Shown: piece after piece, positions 14,912 to 30,341 of the stretch
Layout of the letters: each line of letters starts with the position of its first letter
Position numbering within the stretch: position 1 is the first letter of the stretch
NCBI RefSeq assembly: GCF_005144885.1
Contig: NZ_CP039690.1
Span: 1,612,001 to 1,676,000, forward strand
Length of the DNA: 64,000 nt
Source of the DNA: Phreatobacter stygius
Lineage (GTDB): Bacteria > Pseudomonadota > Alphaproteobacteria > Rhizobiales > Phreatobacteraceae
Reading direction: 5' to 3'
The notes under the pieces: model-generated
Told to the model about the DNA's origin: nothing
The model's input: the letters and a program-made list of their open reading frames with translations, nothing else
The model's database searches: none
Position numbers and translations under genes: made by a program

Positions 14912-15769
14912 TCAGAAGCTGTCGAGGACGTCGCCACCGGCAACGTTCTGGTCGATCTGGTTGAACTGGACGTTCGAACCCATCGAGATCGTCTGGGTGA
15001 AGGCTTCCTGGGTCAGCGTCGTGTTGGCGGCTGTGGCGCCGATACCCGAGAGGTTGCCATCATCGCCGGTGATCGATCCGAGCACGGCACCTACCGCGCT
15101 GCCGCCGCTCGCCGTCGCGGTCAAGGCGAAATTGCCGGCGTCGCCGCCACCGCCGCCATCGCCGCCGGCGCCGCCGGCGCCGCCGAGGGCACCGCCGCCG
15201 CCGCCACCACCGCCGCCGCCACCGCCGCCACCGCTATTGGTGCCGGAATAGGACACGGAGGGATTGGACAGCGAATCGTTATCGGCCAGATTGTTGATCT
15301 GGTCGATATTGAAGTTGTTGCCATCGTTGAGGGTCTGCCAGACCACATCCGGCATCACGACGCTATCGTCAATGCTCTGGATATAGTCGATATCGATGAC
15401 ATCGTTGTCTTCCGGCGGGGTGAGACGAGCCGTGACCCCGACATCGACGGTGACATCCACGTCGACAGTGTTGGTGTTGGTATTGGTATTCTCGTTGATA
15501 TTGGCATTGCCGTTGAGATTCAGATTGCCATTGCCATTCAGGTTGACATTGCCATTGAGGTTGGCGTTGTCGTTCCAGACGGACGTATCAACCGACTGAG
15601 CGGCATGTTGATACTGGCCCTGACCTTGGCCCTGAGCTTGGCCTTGACCCTGGCCTTGACCTTGGCCTTGGCCTTGACCTTGACCCTGGCCTTGCTTCTG
15701 CGCCTGGAGTTCCGCCTGGAGCTGAGCCTGTGCTTCGAGCTGGGCTTGGAGTTGAGCCTGTGTAGGCAT
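14912..15769 (-). CDS. low-complexity putative type I secreted protein
   Basis: A 285-residue protein of striking composition: Q/A-rich 1-25, an uninterrupted Q-G dipeptide run about 26-52 (DNA 15614-15691), an Asn-rich L-N-G-N block 70-100, a Val-Asp block 102-111, then a glycine run 180-193 and a Gly/Ala/Asp tail. The motif Q157-I-N-N-L-A-D-N-D165 matches the repeat of the neighbouring 663-residue protein, tying the two together. The C-terminus ends D-V-L-D-S-F, a hydrophobic/acidic end seen in type I substrates. A GGAG lies before ATG 15769. Likely an extracellular or surface protein exported by the adjacent system; no family recognised. Confidence 0.7.
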   Translation of the reverse strand: MPTQAQLQAQLEAQAQLQAELQAQKQGQGQGQGQGQGQGQGQGQAQGQGQGQYQHAAQSVDTSVWNDNANLNGNVNLNGNGNLNLNGNANINENTNTNTNTVDVDVTVDVGVTARLTPPEDNDVIDIDYIQSIDDSVVMPDVVWQTLNDGNNFNIDQINNLADNDSLSNPSVSYSGTNSGGGGGGGGGGGGGGALGGAGGAGGDGGGGGDAGNFALTATASGGSAVGAVLGSITGDDGNLSGIGATAANTTLTQEAFTQTISMGSNVQFNQIDQNVAGGDVLDSF

Positions 15770-16998
15770 GGTGATCTCCTCATCGAAGATGGAGACACCA
15801 GAACCTTAGCGCTTGTCCGCGTCTCTTCTGGGTCGCGGCACAAACCATGAGGCCTGTGTGTCTGCTTCGGCTGATTGAAACGCGATGCAACAGAATGAAT
15901 GAATGCTGCTCTGCGGTCTTGGGCTCCTGAGCTACCCGGGCATGATGACCTCCCTGGTTGTCGTGGAACGGGCAAATCTCCGCCGCTTCCACTGACGGAC
16001 GTCGCCCGCCGCGGATACGAAACAGCCGGATACACGGCGTCGGAGGACGCATTGCCCGTAAGAGTTTGATCTGAGCACCGGATGCGGAAGGCGAAGCCGG
16101 CACGGACGCGACGCGCCCGCCGGCACAGGCGATGTGCCTGCGGCTACATTCCGGTCTGGCGTGGAATTGAAGGTCGCCCGAAGGCTGCGGCCATAGGCCT
16201 GGATTGGGTTATCGCTACCCGACAGCACCCATAAACTGAGCCCAGGACATGATACTCCCCCTGTCTCTGTACTCCGGCGCCGGTCAAATACGCTGACGGT
16301 CACCGGCCAAATAGCAATGAAGTCTTGCCGATACTCCGGATGATGGGTGGCCCCAAGCGTTTTCGTCAAGTTCTAGAATGGCCACCAAAACCCGGGAAAC
16401 GCATCCTCGAACCACAACCCGCGAGACCCGAACGCGTCCTATAAGCCGGACCCATCGGTAAAATTATGGACCTCACGGTCATCATCGTGTAATGGATTGA
16501 TCATCGAGGCACCATGATACCTGCCTCATCCGAGATGGCTTCGTTTGCGCCGATCGTCGGGCGCCGGGCCATGAGAGAGATTCTGCGGCCGGACCTACTC
16601 CGAAAGCGGCTTGACGGAATCCAGGAACCGCATGTCGGACGGCGAGCACCGTTCGACATCACGAGGGCTGGAGAACCACAGCCGGCCAATGACAGCCGGC
16701 ACAGGAGCTGGCAACGTCCAGGCTCGGAGCATGAAGCGACCCGTCCAGCGCCAAGGCTCTGCCATGACGCGGAAGGGGTATTTTTGTCCGCAAGTCATTC
16801 TGCAAACTCCAAAGGTCGGCCGACAAGATCGCGTCGCGGTCGGATCGCAGCCGGCTTCAGCCTCCGCGGCGGGCTTCGACGCCTGTCCGCGGTAAGTGCG
16901 TCCAACGGCGCGAGCTTCGGTTGCGATCGATTAAGAGCACCCAAGGCGACGCCTCGTGGTCAATCCTGATATCGTCTCCGATTGGGGTGGGGATTGTG
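15770..16998. other. 1.2-kb intergenic region without a convincing gene
   Basis: No frame here has a family match, a good start or high-GC third-position bias consistent with its neighbours. Base composition is visibly less GC-rich than the surroundings, for example around 16310-16520. It must contain the leftward promoter of the low-complexity protein gene and the rightward promoter of the zinc-ribbon gene. I see no clear palindrome, tRNA or insertion-sequence end. Degraded coding remnants or an untranslated RNA cannot be excluded. Confidence 0.5.
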
Positions 16999-17706
16999 AT
17001 GTCGATCAATCTCGAAGACATGCAAGACGAAGACGCGGCCTGCCGATTTCTGGAATATTGCCTTGATCTCGATAATTTGAACTGCCCTCACTGCGGGGAA
17101 ATCAAGCGAATTGGACGCCTCGAGGGCAGGTCGACGCGCAAGTCAACCTTCAAATGCTATTCTTGCCGCAAGTCATTCTCGCTGCGTGCCGGTACGATCT
17201 TCGAAGGCAGCCATATTCCGCTGCACATCTGGCTCCAGGCGCTTTTTTTGACGGTCGCCTCGCGCGGGCGGCTTGGCGCCCATAATCTCGAACGCCTGCT
17301 CCATGTTTCGCTGATGTCGGCTTGGAGCCTGAAGCGCAAGATTATCCACGCGGTCGGCTGGGACCTGATTTGCCCGGAACGCGACGCCGGTGACGCCACG
17401 GCCGGGCCGCCGATCCGGTGGCCCGCCATACCCGCGTCCTTGGACGGTCAACGCAAGCAGACCGTGGCCCAACAGCGCATGGAAAACCTGCGCCTCGCCT
17501 CCGAGATTTTCGACCACCCACAACTGGCCGAGCGTTTCGAGGAAGCCGTTATCCGGCTCCTGCTATTCAATCCCAAGAGCGCGACGGTTTCGAGCGCCGC
17601 AGGTTCGAGCGCCGCAGCCTCGGACGCCGCAGGCTCGGAGCCCGGCCTGTTCCGGGGCCTGGAAGCTCAAGGTCAATTCGACCTGTTCATGCGCGCCGAC
17701 AAATAA
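16999..17706 (+). CDS. IS1595-type zinc-ribbon protein lacking a DDE domain
   Basis: A 235-residue protein from ATG 16999. Residues 30-58 contain C-P-H-C-G and C-Y-S-C-R-K-S-F-S, a four-cysteine zinc ribbon, followed by R-A-G-T-I-F-E-G-S-H-I-P-L-H-I-W, the sequence that starts IS1595/ISXO2 transposases. In transposases a DDE nuclease domain of about 150 residues follows; here the protein instead runs into a helical segment and an S-S-A-A-G repeat region (about 197-215). No terminal inverted repeats were seen. It may be a domesticated DNA-binding protein or a truncated transposase; the intact frame and good start favour a kept gene. Confidence 0.7.
   Translation: MSINLEDMQDEDAACRFLEYCLDLDNLNCPHCGEIKRIGRLEGRSTRKSTFKCYSCRKSFSLRAGTIFEGSHIPLHIWLQALFLTVASRGRLGAHNLERLLHVSLMSAWSLKRKIIHAVGWDLICPERDAGDATAGPPIRWPAIPASLDGQRKQTVAQQRMENLRLASEIFDHPQLAERFEEAVIRLLLFNPKSATVSSAAGSSAAASDAAGSEPGLFRGLEAQGQFDLFMRADK
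17589..17645 (+). repeat. 15-bp tandem repeat inside the zinc-ribbon gene
   Basis: TTCGAGCGCCGCAGG-like units start at 17589, 17604, 17619 and 17634 (last partial). They encode S-S/D-A-A-G pentapeptides near the C-terminus of the zinc-ribbon protein. Copies differ by a few bases, so this is a degenerate coding minisatellite that can change length without a frameshift. Confidence 0.7.
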
Positions 17707-18864: not shown

Positions 18865-18915
18865 GCAACTCCCTGCAATCCGCAGCAATGCCGCAGCCGC
18901 CGGCGTCGGCTTATG
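18865..18915 (+). promoter_or_regulatory. GCAA-decamer promoter, site 1
   Basis: GCAA starts at 18865, 18875 and 18885, exactly 10 bp apart, and a CTTATG hexamer begins 25 bp after the last GCAA (18910). The same spacing is found at sites 2-4 below. It lies 66 bases before the ATG of the small exported protein. Confidence 0.6.
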
Positions 18916-18980
18916 GATCTCCTCGACAGCGAGCGACGCTGTCCGAGCCCAAGAGTGTCCAAGCCCAAGAGGAGCCAGCC

Positions 18981-19343
18981 ATGCCCTTCACGCATTTTCG
19001 CGCCACCGCCGCGGGCCTTGCCATGGCCGCCGCCGTCCTGGTTGCCGGTACCGGCGCGGCCAGCGCCTGCGATCGCGGCGAGGACGTCTGTTCGTTCCGC
19101 CTGATCAACAATACCAGCGTCGAATTGCACTCCTTCTGGGCGTCGCCGCCCAGCGTCTCCAACTGGGAGAACGACATCCTTGGCGACAGCACGCTCGGTG
19201 CCGGCCGCAGCATCAATATCAACATGTCGGACGGCCGGCCCAACTGCGTCTACGACTTCAAGTTCAGGTTCGCCGACGGCGATATCGTCGAGAAGCGCCG
19301 GATCAACATCTGCCGGCTCGGCCGCTACACCCTGAACGAGTGA
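18981..19343 (+). CDS. small exported protein, single W-D-C domain
   Basis: A 120-residue protein from ATG 18981 with GAGGAG eight bases upstream. The signal peptide ends at A-S-A-C (about residue 30). The mature 90 residues contain R-L-I-N-N-T-S-V, N-W-E-N-D-I-L-G, L-G-A-G-R-S-I-N, C-V-Y-D-F-K-F-R-F and a final C. The same order of motifs (W-G-R-D-R-L, C-I-W-D/N-x-K/R, terminal C) appears twice in the exported protein at 25080-26462, so this is a free-standing version of that domain. Periplasmic or extracellular; three or four cysteines suggest disulfides. Function unknown. Confidence 0.75.
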   Translation: MPFTHFRATAAGLAMAAAVLVAGTGAASACDRGEDVCSFRLINNTSVELHSFWASPPSVSNWENDILGDSTLGAGRSININMSDGRPNCVYDFKFRFADGDIVEKRRINICRLGRYTLNE

Positions 19344-19372
19344 CGCGACCGTCATCGCCCGTCCCGCATCCA

Positions 19373-19403
19373 CGACCCGCCCGGCGTCACGCTCGGCGGG
19401 TCG
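19373..19403 (+). terminator. hairpin terminator after the small exported protein gene
   Basis: CGACCCGCC and GGCGGGTCG pair perfectly (9 bp) around a 13-base loop and are followed by TTGCCGTTTT, 30 bases after the stop codon. A moderately good intrinsic terminator for the upstream gene. Confidence 0.6.
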
Positions 19404-19413
19404 TTGCCGTTTT

Positions 19414-19471
19414 GGCGGCTTTCGCCCGGTTGCCGGCCGCCCGGCACGCCGGCAACCGGGCGAAAGCCGCC
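19414..19471. repeat. perfect 23-bp inverted repeat
   Basis: The 23 bases 19414-19436 are exactly complementary to 19449-19471 with a 12-base loop between. It starts 10 bases after the terminator hairpin and ends 10 bases before promoter site 2. Such length and perfection exceed a normal terminator; it may act as a transcription stop for both directions or as a protein-binding or RNA-processing structure. Confidence 0.85.
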
Positions 19472-19481
19472 GGAACCAGCT

Positions 19482-19532
19482 TCAAGACGCTGCAATGCCC
19501 GGCAATGCCGCCGGCCGCGCCTTCTCGCTAAG
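19482..19532 (+). promoter_or_regulatory. GCAA-decamer promoter, site 2
   Basis: TCAA at 19482 and GCAA at 19492 and 19502 (10-bp period), then GCTAAG at 19527-19532, 25 bp after the last block. It lies 55 bases before the ATG at 19588, which supports that small frame as a gene. Confidence 0.65.
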
Positions 19533-19587
19533 CCTGTTTCCAACGCCCCGCGCTGTTGCCGCGGGCAGGCCAAAACGAGACCGCACC

Positions 19588-19896
19588 ATGACCACCCACC
19601 CCGACAACAAGACAGGCATCTTGAGCCGCATCGACCGGCGTCATGCCTCGTTCCTGCTCGCCACCCTGGCAAGCCTGGCGCTGCTCTCCGGCATCGTCGC
19701 CTCGGCTCACGGCGACGCCTCCGCCGCCATCCAGGCCGGCGCGCCGGTCCAGCGCGTCCTCGAACGGGCCGACGAAACCACGCTCGCCCCCGCCCGCCTG
19801 CGCGCGCCGCGCCTGCCGCGCAGCCCCCAGCGCTTCGCCGGGACCGCCGAAGGCAAGCGGCTGTCCGACCGCCACCGCGCGTCCACCTTCGCCTGA
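19588..19896 (+). CDS. small protein with one membrane/signal segment
   Basis: A 102-residue frame placed right after promoter site 2. Residues 20-42 (A-S-F-L-L-A-T-L-A-S-L-A-L-L-S-G-I-V-A-S-A) make an N-terminal hydrophobic segment after a basic stretch, so it is exported or anchored. The rest is rich in Ala, Arg and Pro with no recognisable domain. The RBS is poor. The caspase gene follows 130 bases downstream. Kept mainly because of the promoter match and the hydrophobic segment. Confidence 0.45.
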   Translation: MTTHPDNKTGILSRIDRRHASFLLATLASLALLSGIVASAHGDASAAIQAGAPVQRVLERADETTLAPARLRAPRLPRSPQRFAGTAEGKRLSDRHRASTFA

Positions 19897-19969
19897 GACC
19901 GGCGCGGCACGGATCGGCGATGCCGGCCGCTCGACCGGCGCGACCAACAGGCTGCGGCACGACGGATCG

Positions 19970-19998
19970 TTGAATTGACGGGGCTGGCGATCTATCTT
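19970..19998 (+). promoter_or_regulatory. sigma-70-like promoter before the first caspase gene
   Basis: TTGAAT at 19970-19975 and TATCTT at 19993-19998 are separated by 17 bp and lie 28 bases before the ATG at 20027. No GCAA blocks accompany it, so this caspase gene seems to be controlled differently from its neighbours. Confidence 0.45.
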
Positions 19999-20026
19999 CG
20001 CCGCCTTTCATGACGACCCACGAGCC

Positions 20027-21802
20027 ATGCCTCCTCGGTTTTTCGGCGACGATGATTCAGGTTGGACAGCCCCGGCCGCGCCCCCGTCGCGCCGGGTTGC
20101 GCTGGTCGTCGGCAATGGCGCCTATCGAACCAGCCGGCTGGAAAATCCGGCGCGCGACGCACGGCTGGTGGCCGGCGCCCTCGACCAGCTCGGTTTCGAC
20201 ACCGAACTGGCGATCGACGCCAGCAAGACCATTCTGGAAACCGCCATCGTGCGGCTGGGCGAGCGGCTGGAAAAGGCCGGGCCCGAAGCCGTCGGCTTCT
20301 TCTATTTCGCCGGTCACGGCATCCAGCACCAGGGCGCCAACTATCTGGTGCCGATCGATGCCCATATTCCCGACACGCGCTACCTGAAAAGCGGCGCCAT
20401 CCTGGTCGACTATCTGGTCGAGGAGCTCGGCCGGACCCATTCGCTCGCCAATGTCATCGTGCTCGACGCCTGCCGCGACAGCGCGGTGCGCGACACCGGC
20501 GGCAGCCTGACCCAGGGGCTCGCCTCGATCCAGAACCTGCCCGACGGCACGCTGGTGGTGTTCTCGACCGCCGCCGGCCAGGTCGCCGATGACGGCTCGG
20601 GCGACAACAGCCCCTATGCCGGGGCGCTGGTGCGCCATCTGCTCGAACCGAACCGGCGGCTCGAGGAAATCTTCTTCTCGGTCTCGCGCGACGTGGCCCT
20701 GACCACCGGCAACAGCCAGCGCCCGGCGCTGTTCGTCCAGGGTGCCATCGCGCCGCTCGTGCTGAAACCGGCGCCCGAGCCGCCGAGCCTGCCGCCGCCC
20801 GGACCGGTCTGGATTGCCGCGCCCCCGGCCGTCTTGCCGCCACCGCCGCCGGCTCACGCCGCGGTTGAAGCCCGGGCGACACCAAGAACCGTCGAAGCCA
20901 CCATCGAGGCCCCGACCGAGCCGGCGCCCTGGCCAACCAGCATCGGCAATGGCGCCACGCCGACGCCGGCTGCCGCGAGCCCATGGAACGCTCCCGCCAC
21001 GGCAACACTCGCTCCCGCCCCAGTCCGGAGCCGGCCGCAGACGCTCGCCGGCGATTTCTCCGGCCCCAGCCTGCGCACCAGGCTTGAGGACGCCGCGCGC
21101 CTGCTGCCGTCACGATCGGTCCTCGGCGGCGCTCTGGCGCTGGCGCTGGCCGCGCTCATCGGCGGCTACGCGCTGTGGCCGGCGCGCCTCGCCGTCGATG
21201 TCGGCGACCCCGCCTCCTGGCCGGTCGCACCGGACGGCGCGCTGGTCTGGCGGGCGCCGCCGGATCAGCCTTGCCGCGACGGCTGGACCCGCGTGCTCGA
21301 CGGCCTCTATTGCCTCAGGTCCGGCCAGCCGCTCGGCGCGATCTGGGAGGCCGGCCGCCTGGTTGCGCCGCTCGCCGGTGCGGTCAACCTGAAGATCTCG
21401 GCCAAGACCGGTGGCCGCTGCCCGGCCACCAGCCTGTTCGAAGCCGAGACCGCCTGTCTCGACCCGGTCACGCCATCCTGGTTTTCGACCGGCGCCCGTG
21501 CCGCCGGCCCATCCGCCATGACGATTGCGGGCGCCAGCGCCGGCATGGCGGTCCTGACCCCCAAGACCTCGGTCGACTGCGCCTCGTCCTCGGCCCAGTT
21601 TCCCTTCGCCGGTTATTGCCTGATCGGCGCGGCGCGCCTCGGCCTGGTCACGCCGACGGCGCTCGGCCACGAGCGCCTGTCCGGTCTCGACGGCAGCGCC
21701 GGTGCCATAACGCTGACCGCCTACCAGCGGCTGGCAAGCTGTCCACCGCAAACCACCGTGCTGGAAAACGACAAATATTGCCTGGCCATGGCCTTGTGGT
21801 AG
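20027..21802 (+). CDS. caspase-family (peptidase C14) protein with C-terminal membrane anchor
   Basis: A 591-residue protein. Residues 23-250 are a caspase-like p20 domain: R-V-A-L-V-V-G-N-G-A-Y near 23, F-A-G-H97-G with the catalytic histidine, and V-I-V-L-D-A-C149-R-D with the nucleophile. A proline-rich linker (about 255-340) leads to one transmembrane helix (about 364-386), and the last 200 residues hold a cysteine-containing domain with paired C-P-A-T/C-L-D and C-P-P-Q segments. No signal peptide, so the protease would be cytoplasmic and the C-terminal domain periplasmic (or the reverse). Bacterial metacaspase-like proteases cut after Lys/Arg; the target here is unknown. Confidence 0.88.
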   Translation: MPPRFFGDDDSGWTAPAAPPSRRVALVVGNGAYRTSRLENPARDARLVAGALDQLGFDTELAIDASKTILETAIVRLGERLEKAGPEAVGFFYFAGHGIQHQGANYLVPIDAHIPDTRYLKSGAILVDYLVEELGRTHSLANVIVLDACRDSAVRDTGGSLTQGLASIQNLPDGTLVVFSTAAGQVADDGSGDNSPYAGALVRHLLEPNRRLEEIFFSVSRDVALTTGNSQRPALFVQGAIAPLVLKPAPEPPSLPPPGPVWIAAPPAVLPPPPPAHAAVEARATPRTVEATIEAPTEPAPWPTSIGNGATPTPAAASPWNAPATATLAPAPVRSRPQTLAGDFSGPSLRTRLEDAARLLPSRSVLGGALALALAALIGGYALWPARLAVDVGDPASWPVAPDGALVWRAPPDQPCRDGWTRVLDGLYCLRSGQPLGAIWEAGRLVAPLAGAVNLKISAKTGGRCPATSLFEAETACLDPVTPSWFSTGARAAGPSAMTIAGASAGMAVLTPKTSVDCASSSAQFPFAGYCLIGAARLGLVTPTALGHERLSGLDGSAGAITLTAYQRLASCPPQTTVLENDKYCLAMALW

Positions 21803-21836
21803 CGCTTGCCGCGACGCGCCGCCTGACCGCCCGGCA

Positions 21837-22904
21837 TCAGCGCCATTCCGCGGTGCCGTAACGACCGCCGGAGCTCATCGCGCTGCGCCGTTCGGCCCGG
21901 CCGCCGCCGGCCTCGCCGGCGACTGCGGTATTATATTCCCAGGCGCGGCCACGGCCGCCGTCGCCGAGCGGACGCGCCACGTTCATGTCGCCGTTGCGTC
22001 CGCGGGCCGGGGCCAGGGTCGACAGCCGCTCCAGCGGCGCGACACGGCCATCCCGGCGATCGAACGAGGCCCGGTCCTGGCGCTGGCCGGGCAGGAAGGC
22101 GGTCACCGGGCCGGCCACGCCACGCGCCAGATGGACCGGACGCACCAGCGACGAGCCTTCCCAGGGGTTCTGGGCATTGGCGCCGCGGCTGGCGACCCTT
22201 TGCTCGACCAGGGCGCGGGTCTGCTGGGTCAGGTCGCGCACCTCGATGCGGTCGTTGCGGCGCATGACCTCGAGCAGCGACGAGGTATAGAGGCTCAAGC
22301 CCACCGAACCGCCCCAGTCCTGCGACAGCTGGCCGGAGGCGGACGAGAAACTGACCAGGGCATGGGTGGCCGGCCGGCGCCGCTCGGCGCGTCCGGCATT
22401 GGCGGTCGCCAGCGCGGTCCGGCCATTGGCCTCCAGGAACGGATTGCCGCGGCAGGCATCGACGATGACAAATTTGAAATCGACGCCCGCCGTCTGCAGG
22501 CGGTCGAGAATGCCGTTGACGGTGAAATCGTCGCGCTGGAAGGTCTCCGGCCGGTCCGCACGGGTGTCGCTCGCCATCATGTAGACCTCGCCGTTCACCT
22601 GCAGGCCGTGACCGGAGAAATAGACGATCGCCGCCTCCGCGCCGCGGGCGCTGGCGATGAAGGCGTCGACGGCGGCCTTGAATTCCTCGGAATTCGGATC
22701 CTTGGCCAGCGTCACCGCGAAACCGAAACCGGCAAGTGCCCGGGCCATCTCGGTCGCGTCCTTGACCGGGCTCGGCAGCGGCGACGAGCGATAGGCGGAC
22801 ACGCCGATGGCGAGCGCGACCCGCGGGCCGGCGGCGGCATGGGCCGCGCTCAGGACAAGTGACAGGGCGGCGAGAAGCGCTACGATAAGGCGGCGACTGC
22901 GCAT
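21837..22904 (-). CDS. exported caspase-family (peptidase C14) protein
   Basis: A 355-residue protein from ATG 22904 (GGAG upstream). A signal peptide ends at A-H-A-A (about residue 24). The caspase domain follows at once: R-V-A-L-A-I-G-V-S-A-Y, Y-F-S-G-H99-G and V-I-V-D-A-C151-R-G-N-P-F, so both catalytic residues are present. The C-terminal 110 residues are Arg/Gly-rich and probably disordered. It converges with the membrane-anchored caspase gene (34-base gap). A four-copy GCAA repeat lies about 80 bases upstream. Longer in-frame sequence exists upstream but reads through the divergent gene and is not coding. Confidence 0.88.
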   Translation of the reverse strand: MRSRRLIVALLAALSLVLSAAHAAAGPRVALAIGVSAYRSSPLPSPVKDATEMARALAGFGFAVTLAKDPNSEEFKAAVDAFIASARGAEAAIVYFSGHGLQVNGEVYMMASDTRADRPETFQRDDFTVNGILDRLQTAGVDFKFVIVDACRGNPFLEANGRTALATANAGRAERRRPATHALVSFSSASGQLSQDWGGSVGLSLYTSSLLEVMRRNDRIEVRDLTQQTRALVEQRVASRGANAQNPWEGSSLVRPVHLARGVAGPVTAFLPGQRQDRASFDRRDGRVAPLERLSTLAPARGRNGDMNVARPLGDGGRGRAWEYNTAVAGEAGGGRAERRSAMSSGGRYGTAEWR

Positions 22905-22981
22905 GGCCGGAACTCCATCCTGGTTCGACAGGCGTCGTCGCTGTCCGGCTGAACCCTGCGATGCGTGCCGGCCGGCCGGAA

Positions 22982-23015
22982 TTGCAGCGCCTTGCACGGC
23001 GTTGCGGTGCCTTGC
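22982..23015 (-). promoter_or_regulatory. GCAA-decamer repeat, four copies, facing the exported caspase
   Basis: On the minus strand GCAA starts at 23015, 23005, 22995 and 22985, exactly 10 bp apart. The expected -10 position 25 bp downstream reads CGCAGG, a poor match, so promoter strength may depend strongly on an activator. The end of the block is 78 bases from the caspase ATG. Confidence 0.6.
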
Positions 23016-23075
23016 CCGTGGTCTTTCCCGCGGGCGCAAGATCTGGCTGATTGGGCCGCGAACCGGAGATGACCG

Positions 23076-24002
23076 ATGGCCAACGCTATCCCCAATCTGT
23101 TCCTGAAATGGCTCGCCGTTCGCGAGCTCCTGCGCCTGCCCCAGTCCAATGCCGAAATCGCCACCCGGCTGTGGGGGCCGGACGACGGGCCCTCGAAGTT
23201 CTCCAAGATGTTGCGCGGCGACTATGGCTGCGAACCCGATGTCGCCGGCGAATTGGCCGATGTGGTCAACAAGCGCGTGGCGGTGGTCCGCGGCGCCGCC
23301 GGCCGGACGCAGCCGGCGGCCTATGCCTTCCGGCCGCTCGATTTCGAATCGCCTGTTCTGTCCTTCACCCGCCAGCTCATCGACACCACCGAGGTCATCG
23401 ACCAGGACGTGCTCGATCGCACCCACAAGGCGCTGGTCCGCGAATTCGCGCCTGACGCACCCAACAATCCCGGCAGCCTGCAGGTCGCCATCGAACAATA
23501 TGGCTCGACCCGCTTCTTCGAAGGCGCCTCGGCCGCGGCCTCCGGACCGCCGGTCTTCGAGATCGGCCGGCACAAGGGTCTGTTCGCCATTGACGGCATT
23601 CCGGCCGAGGCCGCCGCCGGCGCCTTGAAGGTCTATGTCATGTTCTCGCGCGACCCATCCATGCTCGGTGGCCGGATCTGGGACATGACCTTTCAGGACG
23701 TCGTGCGCTGGCTGCCCTCGCCCTTCGAACCCACGGTCAAAGACGGCCGCATTCTCCTGATGCGCGAGCCGAAGCCGGTCCAGCCGATCCCCGGCCGCTT
23801 CCGTTTGACCGCCATCGTGGTGCGCAATCCCGATATTCTCGGCCGGCTCGATCCGCGTGGCGGCAATCCACCGCCGGCGCCGCTCGACGAGGAGGAGACC
23901 GCCCGTTTCCTGACCAATCTCGCCCGCCTGACCAAGAGCCATGCCAATGCCGTCGGCTTCTGCGGCAGCGATTATGTCGTGCGCGAGCCCAAAGCCGCCT
24001 GA
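23076..24002 (+). CDS. unknown protein with cro-like N-terminus
   Basis: A 308-residue cytoplasmic protein, divergent from the exported caspase gene; GGAG stands before ATG 23076. Residues 1-70 look like a helix-turn-helix (S-N-A-E-I-A-T-R-L-W-G; F-S-K-M-L-R-G-D-Y-G; V-A-G-E-L-A-D-V-V-N-K-R). The remaining 230 residues are mixed alpha/beta with L-K-V-Y-V-M-F-S-R-D, W-D-M-T-F-Q-D-V-V-R-W-L-P-S and E-T-A-R-F-L-T-N-L-A-R-L. I recognise no family. It could be a regulator or a sensor protein of the caspase locus. Confidence 0.75.
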   Translation: MANAIPNLFLKWLAVRELLRLPQSNAEIATRLWGPDDGPSKFSKMLRGDYGCEPDVAGELADVVNKRVAVVRGAAGRTQPAAYAFRPLDFESPVLSFTRQLIDTTEVIDQDVLDRTHKALVREFAPDAPNNPGSLQVAIEQYGSTRFFEGASAAASGPPVFEIGRHKGLFAIDGIPAEAAAGALKVYVMFSRDPSMLGGRIWDMTFQDVVRWLPSPFEPTVKDGRILLMREPKPVQPIPGRFRLTAIVVRNPDILGRLDPRGGNPPPAPLDEEETARFLTNLARLTKSHANAVGFCGSDYVVREPKAA

Positions 24003-24060
24003 CCCAGATTTGATGACCCGGGTTTGAGGTGTAATCCCGGGCCACCGCCCGACACCGGTC

Positions 24061-24111
24061 GCAAGTCCCTGCAACATCCAGCAATGCCCGGCCGACGGGC
24101 TCCCGTCTAGT
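24061..24111 (+). promoter_or_regulatory. GCAA-decamer promoter, site 3
   Basis: GCAA at 24061, 24071 and 24081, then TCTAGT at 24106-24111, again 25 bp after the last block. It precedes the small frame at 24156 by 45 bases. Confidence 0.65.
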
Positions 24112-24155
24112 CAGGTTGCAAGCGGTTCAGCCGCCTTGCACCTCGGGAGCCCGCC

Positions 24156-24389
24156 ATGCGCTTCACTGCCTTTCTCACCCTCGCTGCCGCGCTGCCCTGG
24201 ATGATTGCCATGGTGTCGCTCTGCCGCCACGCCCGGCGCCGGCGCGCTCCCGCGCTGATGGCCTGCGCCCGGCGCTCCAGCGCGGCGGCGGTCGCCGGCG
24301 ATACCCGCATGCCCCTCCGGCGCGCCCGCCCCATGTCCCGCAACACGTCGCAACGTTGTGCAATGCCGCACATCGCGGCCGCTCGCTAA
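24156..24389 (+). CDS. small membrane/exported protein (77 aa)
   Basis: A 77-residue frame behind promoter site 3 with GGGAG before the ATG. Residues 4-22 (T-A-F-L-T-L-A-A-A-L-P-W-M-I-A-M-V-S-L) are hydrophobic and preceded by M-R-F, then the chain becomes strongly basic (many Arg). The TAA stop at 24387-24389 is also part of the -10 hexamer of promoter site 4, and the last coding bases are the GCAA blocks of that site. This double use suggests either a very compact arrangement or that the frame is only fortuitously open at its end. No family recognised. Confidence 0.45.
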   Translation: MRFTAFLTLAAALPWMIAMVSLCRHARRRRAPALMACARRSSAAAVAGDTRMPLRRARPMSRNTSQRCAMPHIAAAR

Positions 24390-24390
24390 G
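24340..24390 (+). promoter_or_regulatory. GCAA-decamer promoter, site 4
   Basis: GCAA at 24340, 24350 and 24360, then GCTAAG at 24385-24390, 25 bp after the last block and identical to the hexamer of site 2. The ATG of the next exported protein is 54 bases downstream. Confidence 0.68.
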
Positions 24391-24443
24391 CCCTAAGCAG
24401 ACGGAGCGGATCAGCCATCCGCCCTGACCTCAAGGAGCAGGAT

Positions 24444-24920
24444 ATGTCGGCCATCACTACGCTTCTGACCGCGGTCGCGATCGCCTCGGGCTTCGCCGCC
24501 GCTCCGGTCGAGGCCGGGCCCTATCGGCAGGACCGGTTTGTCGAGGCGGTGGTCAACGACCGGATCATCGACCTGTTCCATCATGCCACCCCTGCGACCC
24601 GCAGCGAGCGGACCAACTATCTCGCCGGTTTCACCCTCTGGTATGACAGCAATTGCGACTTCCTGCCGATGCCGACCTTCGAGGCGATCCGGCGGCTGGT
24701 CAAGGACGCCAACCAGACCCATGATTCGCGGGCGGCAGGGGCGGTCGAGGCCGGCTATCAGGATGCCAGGGCCTTTCTCGGCGAAAAGGGCTGCTCCAGC
24801 CGCGACGCGACCGCCGCGCGCGGCGCCCTCGGCCGCTTCTGGGATGGCATCGCGCGGCCGCGCGACCGCCAGGGCAGCCAGGGCGGCATCGAGCGCGCCC
24901 ATGACGACGGCCGTTTCTGA
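24444..24920 (+). CDS. exported protein of unknown function (158 aa)
   Basis: AAGGAGCAGG lies directly before ATG 24444, a strong RBS. The signal peptide ends at V-E-A-G (about residue 25). The mature protein is helical with V-N-D-R-I-I-D-L-F-H-H, L-A-G-F-T-L-W-Y-D-S-N-C-D-F-L-P and a second cysteine in G-E-K-G-C-S-S, which could pair with the first. It is controlled by promoter site 4. No family recognised; periplasmic location is the only safe inference. Confidence 0.72.
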   Translation: MSAITTLLTAVAIASGFAAAPVEAGPYRQDRFVEAVVNDRIIDLFHHATPATRSERTNYLAGFTLWYDSNCDFLPMPTFEAIRRLVKDANQTHDSRAAGAVEAGYQDARAFLGEKGCSSRDATAARGALGRFWDGIARPRDRQGSQGGIERAHDDGRF

Positions 24921-25079
24921 CCGGCGGAACGGCAGGCCCCGACGGCCGATGACCAGCCGTGCTTGACCCATCGGCCGCGTGATCGGTGCTTGGCCGATCC
25001 GCCCGATCCGGCCTGCCTGCGTGACAGCCGATGACGCGCCGTCTAAGTTCACCGACCGATCAACAGATGGCATTCGTCG

Positions 25080-26462
25080 ATGCGGTTTCCGCGCGTCCTG
25101 AGCACACTTGTCGCCCTTGGCCTGAGCGTTGCAGCAATGCCGAGCGTCGCGGTGCTGTGGCCGCCGGCCGTCCATGCCCAGCAGCGCGGGGGGGCCGACC
25201 GCAACAATCCCGACGTGTTCATCGTCAATCGTTATTCGGCCGCCATCACCAGGCTCTACGCCTCGCCGGTCAGCGATGACAATTGGGGCCGCGACCGGCT
25301 GAGCGGCACCAGCATCGCCGCCGGCCAGCGCGGCGAACTGCGCCCGGAGCGCGGCCGCGGCTGCATCTGGGACATCAAGGTCATCTACCAGAATGGCCGG
25401 GAAGAGGAAAAGCGCCGGCAGGGCCTGTGCGAGGTCAGCGAAGTGGTGTTCGACGGCGCCAATGCCATCTTTCCGCAGGGCAACCAGGCAACCAACCCGA
25501 CCCAGCCGACCCAGCCGGTCCAACCCACCCAACCGACCCAGCCCACCCAACCGGCCCAGCCCACCCAACCGACGCAGCCCGCCCAGCCGCCACGCGCGGC
25601 CGATACGATGATCATCAACCAGGGGCCGGCGGTCATCGTTCAGCTGTTCGCGCAGGGGCAGAATGCCACCGACTGGGGCCGCGACCGGCTGAGCACCAGC
25701 ACCTTGCGCGCCACCGGCCGGTTCCACCTCAGGCTCGCCAGCGACCAGGGCTGCATCTGGAACCTGCGTTTCGTCTTCGCCGGCGGCGGTGTCGAAACCC
25801 GCCAGGCCCAGAACCTCTGCGAATTGCCGGAGCTCACCGTCGCCGCCCGCGCCCAGCCCGGGCAGGTCATCTCGTCCGGCACCGGCTTTTACGTCAGCCG
25901 TTTCGGCCATGTCCTGACCACCTTCCATTCGGTGCGCAATTGCTCGGCCGTGTCGATCGCCCGGCCTGGCGGGCAGCGCGTCACCATGGTCCGGGTCGCC
26001 GATGACGCCGAATTCGACCTGGCGCTTTATCAGGTGCCGGATCTGGTCAGCCCGGTTGCGCCGTTCCGGCTCGGCTCCGCCGGGTTGCGGCTGGGCGAAA
26101 CCGTGGTGATCGTCGGTTACCCGGCGCGGCGCGTGCTCGGCGCGGTCGCCGTGGTCAGCAGCACGGTCACCGCGACATCAGGCTCGGGCAGCGACCAGAA
26201 CCGCTTCCAGTTCCAGGGCGGCGCGGTCGAGGAGCCCTGGGGTGCGCCGATCTATGACGGCAATGGCCTGGTCGTCGGCATCGCCAACGATCCGCAATTC
26301 ATCGGACGGCCGGGAACCGGCATCCAGCGCGACGCCATCGCCCGCTTCCTGCGCCGCAACAATGTCGAGATCACCGAAGTCGCCCAGGGCGAGGCGCGCC
26401 GGCTGCCGACCACGCAGGACTATGCCTTTCCGGTGGTGCTGCCGCTCGACTGCGTCCAGTAG
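25080..26462 (+). CDS. exported trypsin-like pseudoprotease with two W-D-C domains
   Basis: A 460-residue exported protein (signal peptide ends at V-H-A-Q, about residue 36). Two copies of the W-D-C domain follow: about 45-120 (N-W-G-R-D-R-L, C-I-W-D-I-K, L-C-E-V) and about 178-255 (D-W-G-R-D-R-L, C-I-W-N-L-R, L-C-E-L), joined by a P-T-Q repeat linker coded by 9-bp DNA repeats at about 25497-25590. The C-terminal half is a trypsin-like fold with G-T-G-F-Y-V, T-F-H283-S-V and F-D313-L-A-L. The nucleophile motif GxSGxP reads E-P-W387-G-A-P, so serine is replaced by tryptophan and hydrolysis is unlikely. It may bind peptides or act as a scaffold. Confidence 0.8.
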   Translation: MRFPRVLSTLVALGLSVAAMPSVAVLWPPAVHAQQRGGADRNNPDVFIVNRYSAAITRLYASPVSDDNWGRDRLSGTSIAAGQRGELRPERGRGCIWDIKVIYQNGREEEKRRQGLCEVSEVVFDGANAIFPQGNQATNPTQPTQPVQPTQPTQPTQPAQPTQPTQPAQPPRAADTMIINQGPAVIVQLFAQGQNATDWGRDRLSTSTLRATGRFHLRLASDQGCIWNLRFVFAGGGVETRQAQNLCELPELTVAARAQPGQVISSGTGFYVSRFGHVLTTFHSVRNCSAVSIARPGGQRVTMVRVADDAEFDLALYQVPDLVSPVAPFRLGSAGLRLGETVVIVGYPARRVLGAVAVVSSTVTATSGSGSDQNRFQFQGGAVEEPWGAPIYDGNGLVVGIANDPQFIGRPGTGIQRDAIARFLRRNNVEITEVAQGEARRLPTTQDYAFPVVLPLDCVQ

Positions 26463-26501
26463 CTGTGATCCGAGGCGAAGCCCGGCTGCTTGGCCGCCGG
26501 C

Positions 26502-26542
26502 CCAATGCTGGCGCAATGCTGGCGCAATGCCCGGATGCTAAC
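26502..26542 (+). promoter_or_regulatory. variant GCAA repeat before the response regulator gene
   Basis: CCAATGCTGG at 26502 and GCAATGC at 26513 and 26524 repeat every 11 bp rather than 10, and GCTAAC stands at 26537-26542, 24 bp after the second copy. The ATG is 35 bases downstream. If it is the same kind of site, the response regulator controls its own gene. Confidence 0.5.
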
Positions 26543-26576: not shown

Positions 26577-27254
26577 ATGGTGCGTGTTTTGTTGGTGGAC
26601 GACCAGCCGGAAATGGCTTCGGCGCTTGGTGCGGCCCTGAAACGATATGACATGATCGTCGACCATGTGGCGACACTGACCGATGCCCACGAAGCCATCG
26701 CCTCCTGCGCCTATGGCGCGATCCTGCTCGACCGACAATTGCCCGACGGCGAAGGCCTGACCCTGATTCCCGCGCTGCGCGCCAAAGGCATCGCCGTGCC
26801 GATCATCGTCTTGACCGCGCGCGGCGATCTCGCCGACCGGATCGCCGGGCTCGACAAGGGCGCCGACGACTATCTGGCCAAGCCCTTCGCCGTCGAGGAA
26901 CTGCTGGCGCGGCTGCGCGCGGTGCGCCGCCGTTCCGCCGAACTGTCCGCCGACATCATTCGGGTCGGCCGGCTGTCCTTCGATTTCAGCCACCGCGAGG
27001 CGAGCATCGACGGCGCCGCCCTGGAATTGCCGCGGCGCGAGCTCCTGGTGCTGGAAACCCTGCTGCGCCGCATGGGCCGCACCGTCCAGCGCTCGTCGCT
27101 CGAGGAGGCCGTCTACAGCATGGATGACGAGATCCAGTCGAACGCCCTCGACACCCACGTCTCGCGGCTGCGCCGCAAGCTCGCCGACGCCGACGCCGGC
27201 ATTGCCATCCACGCCATCCGCGGCATCGGCTATCTCCTGAAACATGCGCCGTGA
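26577..27254 (+). CDS. OmpR-family response regulator
   Basis: A 225-residue two-domain regulator from ATG 26577 with AAGGGA upstream. The receiver domain has V-D-D at 7-9, phospho-acceptor D52 in A-I-L-L-D-R-Q, T in V-L-T-A-R and the lysine in L-A-K-P-F. The C-terminal winged helix contains L-P-R-R-E-L-L-V-L, the recognition-helix region A-L-D-T-H-V-S-R-L-R-R-K-L and I-R-G-I-G-Y-L-L, the OmpR/QseB hallmark. The kinase gene follows 38 bases later. OmpR proteins bind tandem repeats of about 10-11 bp, which fits the GCAA blocks seen upstream of several nearby genes. Confidence 0.93.
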   Translation: MVRVLLVDDQPEMASALGAALKRYDMIVDHVATLTDAHEAIASCAYGAILLDRQLPDGEGLTLIPALRAKGIAVPIIVLTARGDLADRIAGLDKGADDYLAKPFAVEELLARLRAVRRRSAELSADIIRVGRLSFDFSHREASIDGAALELPRRELLVLETLLRRMGRTVQRSSLEEAVYSMDDEIQSNALDTHVSRLRRKLADADAGIAIHAIRGIGYLLKHAP

Positions 27255-27292: not shown

Positions 27293-28687
27293 ATGATTTT
27301 CGGCCGCGTCCGATCCCTGAAATGGCGCCTGGTCTGGCGGCTGGTGCTGCTGCAAGGCGCCATGCTGGCCTTGCTGCTGGTGCTCGCCGTCGGCACGCTC
27401 TGGGCGACCGGTTACCTGATCGACGAGCCGGACGAGGACGCCGTCGCCGATGCGGTCCAGGTGGCGCTGACGCGCGACGCCGAGGGCCGGCTGATGCTGC
27501 GCCGGACCAAGGAGCTGGTCCAGCTCCGCCAGGACAGCCCCAATCTGTGGTTCATCGTGCGCGACCGCCAGGGCCAGGTCCTGTCCGAGGGGCAGGCGCC
27601 GCCGGAATTCGCCCGTATCGGCGACGCCCTCGATCATATCAGCCAGGCCCGCCTCGGCTGGCAGATCGGCGACGAGCCGGGACTGCCGACCGCCCGGGTC
27701 AAACGGGTCGATACCGCGGCCGGCAATGTCCAGATCATTTCCGGCTCGGGCGGCAAGCTGCTGCTGCGCAAACTGGTGCTCGGCGCCTCCATCCTGTTCC
27801 TCAGCGCCATCCTGCCCAATCTCGTGCTGATGACGCTGGCGACCATCATCGCCACCTCCATGGTGGTCCGCCGGGCGCTGGCCGGCCTTGGCGAAGCGGC
27901 GGCGGAAGCCGAACGTATCGACATCGACAAGCGCGGCATGCGCCTGCCGGCCGACACCGTGCCGACCGAGGTGACGCCGCTGGTCAAGGCGGTCAACGAT
28001 GCGCTCGGCCGGCTCGACGAGGGTTATGAACGGCACAAGCGTTTCCTGGTCGACGCGGCCCATGAGCTGCGCACGCCGATCGCCATCCTGCAGACGCGGC
28101 TGGAGGCGCTGCCCCAGACGCCGGACAAGACGCGGCTTCTGGAAGACATAGCCAGGCTCGCCAATCTTGCCGAGCAATTGCTCGACCTGCAGCGTCTCAA
28201 CCAGCGGGTCGGTCATTTCGCGCCGATCGACCTGGTCACGATCGGCCGCCGCGTCGCCACCGACCTGGCCCCGCTCGCCATCGCCGCCGGTTATGAACTG
28301 TCCTTCGACACCGCCGCCCAGGCCGTTCCCGTCATGGGCGACCAGGCGGCGCTGGAACGGGCGCTGACCAACCTGGTGCAGAACGCTATCCAGCATGGCG
28401 GCCGGCGCGGCGCGATCACCATCGCGGTGACCGCCGACGGCTCCGTCGAGGTCGCCGACGAGGGCGACGGCATTCCGGCCGACCAGCACGAGCGGATCTT
28501 CGAGCCGTTCCATCGGCTGACACCACTCGACCGCGGCGCTGGCCTCGGTCTCAACCTGGTGCGCGAGATCGCCGACATCCATGGCGGCGACGTCAGCGTG
28601 TTCGAGCGGCCGGGCGGCGGCGCCTGTTTCCGGTTGACCGTGCCGCGGCTTGCTCGCCCGTCGCCCGGCCGTACAGCCGAAGTATGA
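27293..28687 (+). CDS. sensor histidine kinase
   Basis: A 464-residue membrane kinase. Two transmembrane helices (about 14-40 and 165-190) enclose a periplasmic sensor region of about 125 residues. The dimerisation helix carries D-A-A-H257-E-L-R-T-P, the phosphorylated histidine; the ATPase domain has N-L-V-Q-N-A-I-Q-H (N box), D-E-G-D-G-I (G1), F-x-P-F and G-L-G-L-N-L-V-R-E-I (G2). It should phosphorylate the regulator encoded upstream. The signal sensed is unknown; the neighbouring exported proteins suggest an envelope cue. Confidence 0.92.
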   Translation: MIFGRVRSLKWRLVWRLVLLQGAMLALLLVLAVGTLWATGYLIDEPDEDAVADAVQVALTRDAEGRLMLRRTKELVQLRQDSPNLWFIVRDRQGQVLSEGQAPPEFARIGDALDHISQARLGWQIGDEPGLPTARVKRVDTAAGNVQIISGSGGKLLLRKLVLGASILFLSAILPNLVLMTLATIIATSMVVRRALAGLGEAAAEAERIDIDKRGMRLPADTVPTEVTPLVKAVNDALGRLDEGYERHKRFLVDAAHELRTPIAILQTRLEALPQTPDKTRLLEDIARLANLAEQLLDLQRLNQRVGHFAPIDLVTIGRRVATDLAPLAIAAGYELSFDTAAQAVPVMGDQAALERALTNLVQNAIQHGGRRGAITIAVTADGSVEVADEGDGIPADQHERIFEPFHRLTPLDRGAGLGLNLVREIADIHGGDVSVFERPGGGACFRLTVPRLARPSPGRTAEV

Positions 28688-28922
28688 TCGAGCACGATCG
28701 GCGGCCTTCCGGCGGCTTTTGAACTATTCCTTCGTTGCCGCCTGCTATCCGCAATGTTCGCACAATTGGCATATCGCATCATTTGCTGACCGGGAGAGCT
28801 TCGCCTTGCATTGATTGCGAGGCGGCGGCCCTTCTTTGCCTTATTGCGACAGCGTGACCGGCGATTATTTGGACATTGCACAAAAGATCGAGGCACGGCG
28901 CCGTCAAGCTACGAGGCTTCGC

Positions 28923-30341
28923 GTGATCGCGATCGCCACGCGTGGCGGGCCACGGCGCGGCCTTGCCGCGCTCCTGTGCCTGCTGCTTGCGGCCTGCGCG
29001 ACCTCCGACATCAGCCCGGTCAACGGCCCGCTCCTGCCGGCCGTGACCACCACGCCGGCCACGCTTTCGCCGGGCCCGCTTCCGCCGGACGCCGATACCG
29101 GCATCGTCTTGGCTTTTTCCGGCGGCGGCGCCCGCTCGGCCGCCTTCGGTTACGGCGCGCTCACGGCTCTCGCCGAACGCCCGTCGGGCCATCGGGGGCG
29201 CAGCCTGGCCGACGACGTGCTGGTCGTTTCCGGCGTCTCGGGCGGCGCGATCCTCGCCTCCTATTACGCACTCAACGGACCGGCCGGCCTCGAAACATTC
29301 CGCCGGGCATTCCTCGATCAGGACGTCGAGGCGGCGCTGCGCACCTCCCTTACCCCGGTCAATCTCCTGCGCGCCTATCAGGGCGGGGTGAACGACCTCA
29401 CCGGCCTGCCGGCCTGGCTCGACGCCAACCTGTTCCATGGCGCGACCTTCGGCGATCTTCGGCGCGCCTCGCGCCCGCGCCTGATCGTGCACGCCACCGA
29501 TCTCTACAACCGGGCGCCTTTCGTCTTCGATCAGCCGTCTTTCGCCGCGCTGTGCAGCAATCTCGACGGTTTCCCGCTGTCCCATGCGGTCGCCGCCTCG
29601 GCCGCGGTGCCGGTGGTGTTCTCGCCCATCGTGCTGCGCAATTTCAACACGGCCTGCCCGGTCGGCCCGGCCGCCCAGTGGCGCCAGCTGAGCCCGGCCC
29701 GCAGCATCGACCCGGCCCTGACCGAGCGAGACTATCAGGCAGCGCTCGTGCGCTACCGCACCGCGCCGGACCTCAACTTCCTCAAGCTTTATGACGGCGG
29801 CCTGGTCGACGGCCTCGGCACCCAGAGCCTGATCCATCTGATGCGCCGCGGTGCGCCCGAACCCTTGTCGGCGGCCCAGGCGGAGCGGCTGCGTCGGGTT
29901 GTCTTCATCGTCGTCGACGCCTCGACCCGGATCGGCGGCGACATGTCACGGACCGCGGCGGGGCCGAATGCGATCGACGCCATTGTCGGCGCGACCGACG
30001 CGATGATCGACAGCGCCAGCCGGCATAGCGTCGATGCCCTGACCCTGCAGGCCAAGGCCTGGCGCGACAAGCTGGTGCGCTGGCGCTGCGCCCGCCCGCA
30101 ACATCTGGCGGACTGCGCAAGCTTCGATGTCGAGGTCATCAGGATCGCGCTCGCCGACGTCACCGACCACTCGCGGCGGCAACGCATTCTGGCCTTGCAC
30201 AACAAGCTGACCTTGAGACCTGACGATGTCGGCCTGGTCGCAGGCCTCGGCCGCCGGCTTTTGACCGGCGACCCGACCTTCCAGCGCGTCTTCGCCGGAC
30301 GGCCCCGCCTGCCGCGGGGCCCGGCCATGGCGCGGCGCTAG
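28923..30341 (+). CDS. patatin-like phospholipase lipoprotein
   Basis: From GTG 28923 the protein has 472 residues and begins with a lipoprotein signal peptide whose lipobox is L22-A-A-C25. The patatin fold shows the oxyanion loop S-G-G-G-A-R-S-A-A-F, nucleophile elbow G-V-S106-G-G and the dyad aspartate in Y-D291-G-G. It is therefore predicted to hydrolyse acyl lipids at the outer membrane or in the periplasm. An in-frame extension to TTG 28815 has no RBS and would bury the signal peptide, so GTG 28923 (ACGAGG upstream) is preferred. Several extra residues between the elbow and D291 make it longer than minimal patatins. Confidence 0.85.
   Translation: MIAIATRGGPRRGLAALLCLLLAACATSDISPVNGPLLPAVTTTPATLSPGPLPPDADTGIVLAFSGGGARSAAFGYGALTALAERPSGHRGRSLADDVLVVSGVSGGAILASYYALNGPAGLETFRRAFLDQDVEAALRTSLTPVNLLRAYQGGVNDLTGLPAWLDANLFHGATFGDLRRASRPRLIVHATDLYNRAPFVFDQPSFAALCSNLDGFPLSHAVAASAAVPVVFSPIVLRNFNTACPVGPAAQWRQLSPARSIDPALTERDYQAALVRYRTAPDLNFLKLYDGGLVDGLGTQSLIHLMRRGAPEPLSAAQAERLRRVVFIVVDASTRIGGDMSRTAAGPNAIDAIVGATDAMIDSASRHSVDALTLQAKAWRDKLVRWRCARPQHLADCASFDVEVIRIALADVTDHSRRQRILALHNKLTLRPDDVGLVAGLGRRLLTGDPTFQRVFAGRPRLPRGPAMARR

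Follow-up and report, generated by a model that had tools for sequence, protein, structure and literature searches.

Which protein reads the tandem GCAA repeats in front of the small genes of this Phreatobacter stygius locus, and what would it do there? The window is a stretch of 64,000 nucleotides (positions 1612001-1676000) from a genome of one contig with 7,354,671 bases. It contains a cluster of genes, named A to H here (Table 1), and arrays of three or four GCAA blocks spaced 10 bp apart stand in front of A, B, D, F, and G. The arrays are probably activator-dependent promoters, with the product of gene E as the candidate activator. They would drive the genes for a group of small proteins, most of them exported, and for a secreted caspase-like protease. 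Sequence comparison establishes the arrays, their spacing, their conservation, and their co-occurrence with E. All calls of exported, hydrophobic, or transmembrane were made by eye from N-termini or sequence.

The preliminary description had placed five 10-bp arrays in the window, and all five were found where it put them. Four read rightward and have three blocks. The fifth has four blocks, lies on the minus strand (23015-22982), and faces the exported caspase gene D. No other place in the 64 kb, on either strand, has a run of at least three KCAA blocks at a period of 10. At all four rightward sites, as had been described, a -10-like hexamer begins 25 bp beyond the first base of the last block. 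The array at 18865 has TTA in the -10 register, and its orthologue in the congener G006 has CTA. The gene D array contains no CTA. It is retained in four genomes, all with CA...T in that register, although its flanks largely diverge. From the beginning of the last block to the start codon of A, B, F, G, and D is 75 to 96 bp, a normal spacing for a promoter.

A random genome-wide frequency had been named as a possible objection to the motif, and this is not what was found. The pattern KCAA-N6-GCAA-N6-GCAA has 7 matches in the 7.35-Mb genome, against about 1.4 expected from the word frequencies of the window and 0 for a reversed-pattern control. Six of the matches lie inside a 5.5-kb cluster and represent the five arrays, two of them being overlapping halves of the four-copy array. 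These 6 matches in the window compare with a mean of 0.015 and a maximum of 1 in 200 first-order Markov simulations. The match at 4200068 was taken as chance. Its last block has no following T, there is no CTA at +26, and no same-strand gene was called within 700 bp. The fuller pattern of the preliminary description, ending in CTAAG, has one match in the genome with spacers of 15 to 25 allowed. A two-block pattern with one mismatch gave 14 genome matches, 6 in the cluster and 8 elsewhere (control, 2). The cluster contains 10 GCAA pairs at a distance of 10.

Twelve genomes of the genus were searched, including that of the window (G000), and 397 genomes of the order were covered in a wider scan. 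This comparison with relatives, which the preliminary description had called for, found the arrays conserved in the congeners G005, G006, and G008. Some array match was present in 7 of the 12 congeners, with one each in G001, G009, and G011. The strict pattern KCAA-N6-GCAA-N6-GCAATNCC was counted across the 397 genomes. It has 5 matches in G000, 5 in G005, 8 in G006, and 4 in G008, none in the other eight congeners, and one each in six of the remaining 385 genomes. Perfect matches to GCAA-N6-GCAATGCC-N18-CTA total 16 (3 in G000, 4 in G005, 6 in G006, and 3 in G008), with 0 in the eight congeners without E. With one mismatch, there is one match in G003, a congener without E. With two mismatches, the counts are 15, 14, 22, and 10 against 8, 12, 12, and 11 for the reversed control, which is little signal.

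Several arrays in G005, G006, and G008 are unlinked to the caspase cluster. According to gene calls, most of the arrays outside the cluster lie 5' of a gene for a small protein, often an exported one. Six of the seven such proteins that were scanned had no Pfam match. One array in G005 (L142), also present in G008, precedes a gene for a thioredoxin-domain protein. Another (L151) precedes a gene for a protein of 84 amino acids that is not export-like. The exported family found with array L152 comprises six copies: G006 has four of them, and G005 and G008 have one apiece. It was found neither in G000 nor in the eight genomes without E. An array lies directly upstream of four of the six copies (G006:C3, G006:C9 with a degenerate last block, G005:C13, and G008:C33). 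The two without a direct array are G006:C58 and a second G006:C3 copy, downstream of the first. Weak relatives of gene A (25-27%) stand after arrays in G005, G008, and a more distant genome of the order, G759.

The geometry was measured in two sets of arrays. The smaller set contained 28 arrays from the window, L139-L154, and L158, with L155-L157 left out. Sixteen of these have CTA at +26, counted from the last GCAA, and CTA occurs elsewhere in the first 60 bp 3 times. The larger set contained 37 arrays from 23 sources; it adds L209, L216, L236, L242, and L244 and allows CCAA as the first block. In this set, 20 of 37 arrays have CTA exactly 26 bp past the point where the last block begins, and in 10 the series is extended upstream by a fourth NCAA block. 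Many of the 37 are orthologous pairs, so a binomial value for the spacing overstates independence. By our own grouping, about eleven nonorthologous promoters have the exact same distance. Spacers and flanks vary between arrays, and blocks and distances are kept. Two arrays are doubtful, one in G008 with CTA one base early (L150, G008:C8:32344) and one in G005:C14 with no same-strand gene downstream within 700 bp (L145).

If the A at +28 is position -11, the last GCAA would lie at -39 to -36, and the TGCC after it would fall in the -35 region. Class II-type activator promoters have a site at -35 at a fixed distance from the -10. This arrangement was found here, as 30 of 37 arrays have A at +28, and the arrays look like activator-type promoters. 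In the proposed mechanism, copies of a protein would line up head to tail on the three or four direct GCAA repeats, which follow one another at each turn of the helix. The bound array would end directly against a poor -35 region, and the bound protein would recruit RNA polymerase to a -10 that is weak and of the YA type. The binder would most likely be E, whose gene has the exported caspase gene on one side and the genes for small exported proteins of the proposed program on the other. The preliminary description had proposed a multimeric activator site that replaces the -35 box, bound by the adjacent OmpR-type regulator. Its tandem in-phase blocks at a fixed -10 distance and its local regulon are supported; its choice of binder is not.

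E was present in 4 of the 12 congeners, the same four that have strict arrays. Arrays were found in all four congeners with E and in none of the eight without it. These four do not form one clade in a DnaN tree. Two changes are required, and one change sufficed in 0% of 200 bootstrap trees. In a sample of 385 genomes of the class, only the genome of the window had E. A profile search retrieved E from two more genomes of the order, in other families, G437 (44% identical to E) and G759 (38%). Among the 397 genomes of the order, E occurs in 6, the strict array in 10, and both in 5 (hypergeometric, 1.9e-8, relatedness ignored).

In both G437 and G759, a caspase gene and GCAA arrays are found in the neighborhood of E. 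G437 is among the six genomes outside the genus that have a strict array; this array shares a contig with E, at a distance of about 9 kb. A looser pattern found 6 arrays in 41 kb near the two E genes; in simulations of the three stretches, the mean counts were 0, 0, and 0.007. It found 0 in 1.55 Mb of control loci. Two of the six distant arrays have CTA at +26. One of these is 5' of a weak gene A homologue (25%), and the other is 5' of a gene for a small export-like protein. One G759 array lies upstream of a low-scoring open reading frame (ORF) of 152 amino acids, which is followed by E itself. Among the cluster genes used for searches, those with matches common to the E neighborhoods of G005, G006, G008, G437, and G759 were E and the caspase-domain proteins. 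G437 also has two arrays back to back, about 24 bp apart (L242:10512-10583). They resemble a divergent pair, and neither has CTA at +26.

The N terminus of E is its most constant part, with 73 of residues 1 to 77 invariant in four orthologues, as against 79-80% at the lowest for the whole protein. The motif F-S-K-x-L-x-G-D is invariant in all six E proteins. Such conservation might be expected of a part that reads DNA. A low-confidence AlphaFold model has four N-terminal helices (5-19, 25-33, 38-46, and 54-74). From these we infer a putative DNA-binding domain. That E binds DNA through these helices and activates transcription at these promoter elements, and any signal to which it responds, is likewise what we infer. 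The middle part of E (about 23430-23640, profile positions 118-188) has a weak match to ribosomal protein L24 (E value, 0.0028) and is perhaps a small beta-barrel. A phage or plasmid origin of E was rejected; no relatives were found in viral contigs, phages, or plasmids. We saw no evidence for a proteolytic link between the caspases and E and claim none.

Several results weigh against E as an activator acting through the arrays. E has no Pfam, NCBIfam, PHROGs, or PADLOC match. Six of six E proteins had no Pfam match at E values up to 10, and six of six had no PHROGs match. The matches to the PDB were all weak, and none was to a DNA-binding regulator. Comparison of the E profile with one XRE domain gave a probability of 0.5%. 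The AlphaFold model is poor (mean predicted local distance difference test score, 48), and Foldseek with this model retrieved nothing at an E value of 0.001. Outside the genus, the overlap of E with the strict array is, on its own, weak (one of two E genomes; P = 0.03). A at +28 is absent in 7 of the 37 arrays, namely L145, L150, L153, and four of the five from G437; these four have no CTA at +26 either, which speaks against the geometry there. Genes C and H have no array directly upstream. The co-occurrence is also compatible with an unlinked regulator that was inherited with E.

Such a regulator, encoded elsewhere and inherited with the cluster, is an unlikely binder of the arrays, and among the alternatives it is the one that we take most seriously. 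E and the OmpR-type regulator at 26577 are the only candidates that were traced across genomes, and the DNA-binding fold of E is conjectural, given its poor model and the empty Foldseek search. The scatter of the E congeners in the DnaN tree argues against such an unlinked regulator, as do the two distant genomes with E, a caspase gene, and arrays in one neighborhood. E might instead bind the arrays and repress the promoters, which we rate slightly lower again. The arrays stop beside the -35, where a bound protein could equally block polymerase. Against this, the promoters have, by eye, no good -35 and weak -10s, and the blocks reach upstream in fixed phase with the -10, as would suit an activator site.

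The OmpR-type regulator at 26577 had been put forward as the obvious binder. It adjoins the cluster, its family binds tandem repeats at -35 (PhoP), and a GCAAT repeat, kept in G006, precedes its gene. It was rejected on co-occurrence. Among the 12 congeners, it has a close orthologue in G006 alone (95%). It is probably not the binder because G005 and G008 retain caspase D, E, G, H, and the arrays, and the best matches to the regulator there are 38%. Only one of 80 loci around its relatives (L059, from G006) had period-10 GCAA arrays; the 79 others (1.55 Mb), with relatives at 61-77% identity, had none. It also had no match in the 30 kb from G437 and the 11 kb from G759 that were fetched around the distant arrays. 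The repeat before its own gene, at 26502, had been counted with the arrays as an 11-bp variant. It has CAAT at 26503, 26514, and 26525. It was excluded because CTA stands 14, not 26, bp after the last GCAA. With this different spacing and -10 distance, it is probably not the same element. Binding of the arrays by the 26577 regulator is therefore improbable. Least credible of all, to the point of being negligible, is that the repeats arose by chance or are copies of a dispersed repeat spread from promoter to promoter. Their restriction to one cluster in the genome of the window would fit such an origin. The Markov simulations contradict chance, the blocks and distances are kept while spacers and flanks differ, and the arrays stand at several unlinked places in G005, G006, and G008.

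Activation by E thus remains the preferred reading. The chances are about even that E is the founding member of a family of activators with no sequence relationship to known ones, three or four protomers of which would bind GCAA repeats as a head-to-tail chain. In scattered Alphaproteobacteria, this family would serve a dedicated program made up of exported proteins and a secreted protease resembling caspases. If true, it would be a new activator family with a simple, recognizable operator. The repeats can be counted and shifted, and they would then offer a clean system for relating protomer number and phase to promoter strength. To our knowledge, the roles of bacterial caspase homologues are largely open, and the abstract of PMC3501461 appears to take the same view. 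A dedicated regulon would name the genes that are probably switched on together with the secreted caspase and give a handle on its trigger.

Table 1. Genes and sequence elements of the cluster (positions are those of the window)
Feature	Position	Strand	Remarks
GCAA array, 3 blocks at 10 bp	18865-18888	+	5' of gene A; CTTATG (-10-like) at 18910-18915
Gene A	18981-19343	+	120-amino-acid protein; N terminus export-like (by eye)
Array (TCAA, GCAA, GCAA)	19482-19505	+	5' of gene B; GCTAAG (-10-like) at 19527-19532
Gene B	19588-19896	+	102-amino-acid protein; single hydrophobic stretch (by eye)
Gene C	20027-21802	+	Caspase-domain protein (Peptidase_C14); probable transmembrane stretch (by eye)
Gene D	21837-22904	-	Caspase-domain protein (Peptidase_C14); N terminus export-like (by eye)
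Four-block array	22982-23015	-	Faces gene D; CAGGGT in -10 register at 22958-22953
Gene E	23076-24002	+	308-amino-acid protein; no known family; candidate cognate activator
Array	24061-24084	+	5' of small ORF F; TCTAGT (-10-like) at 24106-24111
Small ORF F	24156-24389	+	77 codons
Array	24340-24363	+	5' of gene G; GCTAAG (-10-like) at 24385-24390
Gene G	24444-24920	+	158-amino-acid protein; N terminus export-like (by eye)
Gene H	25080-26462	+	Trypsin-like protein (Trypsin_2); N-terminal part related to gene A
11-bp CAAT repeat	26502-26540	+	5' of response regulator
Response regulator	26577-27254	+	OmpR type
Histidine kinase gene	27293-28687	+	Adjoins OmpR-type regulator

ORF F crosses the array at 24340, and its TAA stop codon lies within the -10 GCTAAG of that array, so that coding and promoter sequences are overlaid. 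Its homologue in G006 was found with a shortened query. An ORF of 71 amino acids lies in its place in G005 and G008 and seems to stop in the -10 likewise. A patatin-like phospholipase gene (28815-30341) lies beside the two-component genes. The protein encoded at 16921-17706 has a weak match, below the cutoff, to Zn_ribbon_IS1595 (transposase zinc ribbon) and no match to a transposase catalytic domain. The protein encoded at 14912-15769 is of low complexity, with Q/G and N/G repeats and no Pfam match at 0.01.

The preliminary description knew of no described motif of this form. That statement has to be narrowed, as excerpts of published work contain similar sites for lambda CII and the SARP family member PimR; neither E nor an arrangement of three or four blocks, spaced 10 bp and placed as here, was found described in the literature searched. 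The CII site carries TTGC on the coding strand. Excerpts of two papers give the CII operator as TTGC-N6-TTGC (PMC4651098, PMC2629481). GCAA-N6-GCAA has this core and spacing on the other strand, and both are direct repeats at -35. The arrays differ from it in having three or four blocks instead of two, in carrying GCAA rather than TTGC on the coding strand, and, if the A at +28 is -11, in ending upstream of the -35 instead of flanking it. E, moreover, matches no PHROGs or Pfam family.

SARP regulators combine an OmpR-type DNA-binding domain with a BTAD domain. No OmpR-type DNA-binding domain was found in E with Pfam. The PimR site, as excerpted, contains three CGGCAAG heptamers with 4-bp spacers; it lies clear of the -35, which SARP sites other than that of PimR are said to overlap (PMC3367932). 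Like the arrays, the PimR site repeats a GCAA core in tandem along one face of the helix. The period for PimR is 11, whereas GCAA runs of at least three blocks in the window occur at a period of 10 only. The PhoP box contains tandem hexamers separated by five bases and thus 11 bp apart, and PhoP binds head to tail on direct repeats, with some boxes overlapping the -35 (PMC3335776). Boxes of the OmpR/PhoB type therefore resemble the arrays in their direct repeats, in the proposed head-to-tail binding, and, for some PhoP boxes, in their place at -35. They differ in the 11-bp period given for PhoP, and the adjacent family member at 26577 is not conserved together with the arrays. In carrying Peptidase_C14, genes C and D resemble the bacterial caspase homologues (metacaspases and orthocaspases), the subject of PMC6426788 and PMC3501461. 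No paper tying bacterial caspase genes to a GCAA motif was found in the literature searched. The kind of promoter is known, and the candidate activator E is unfamiliar.

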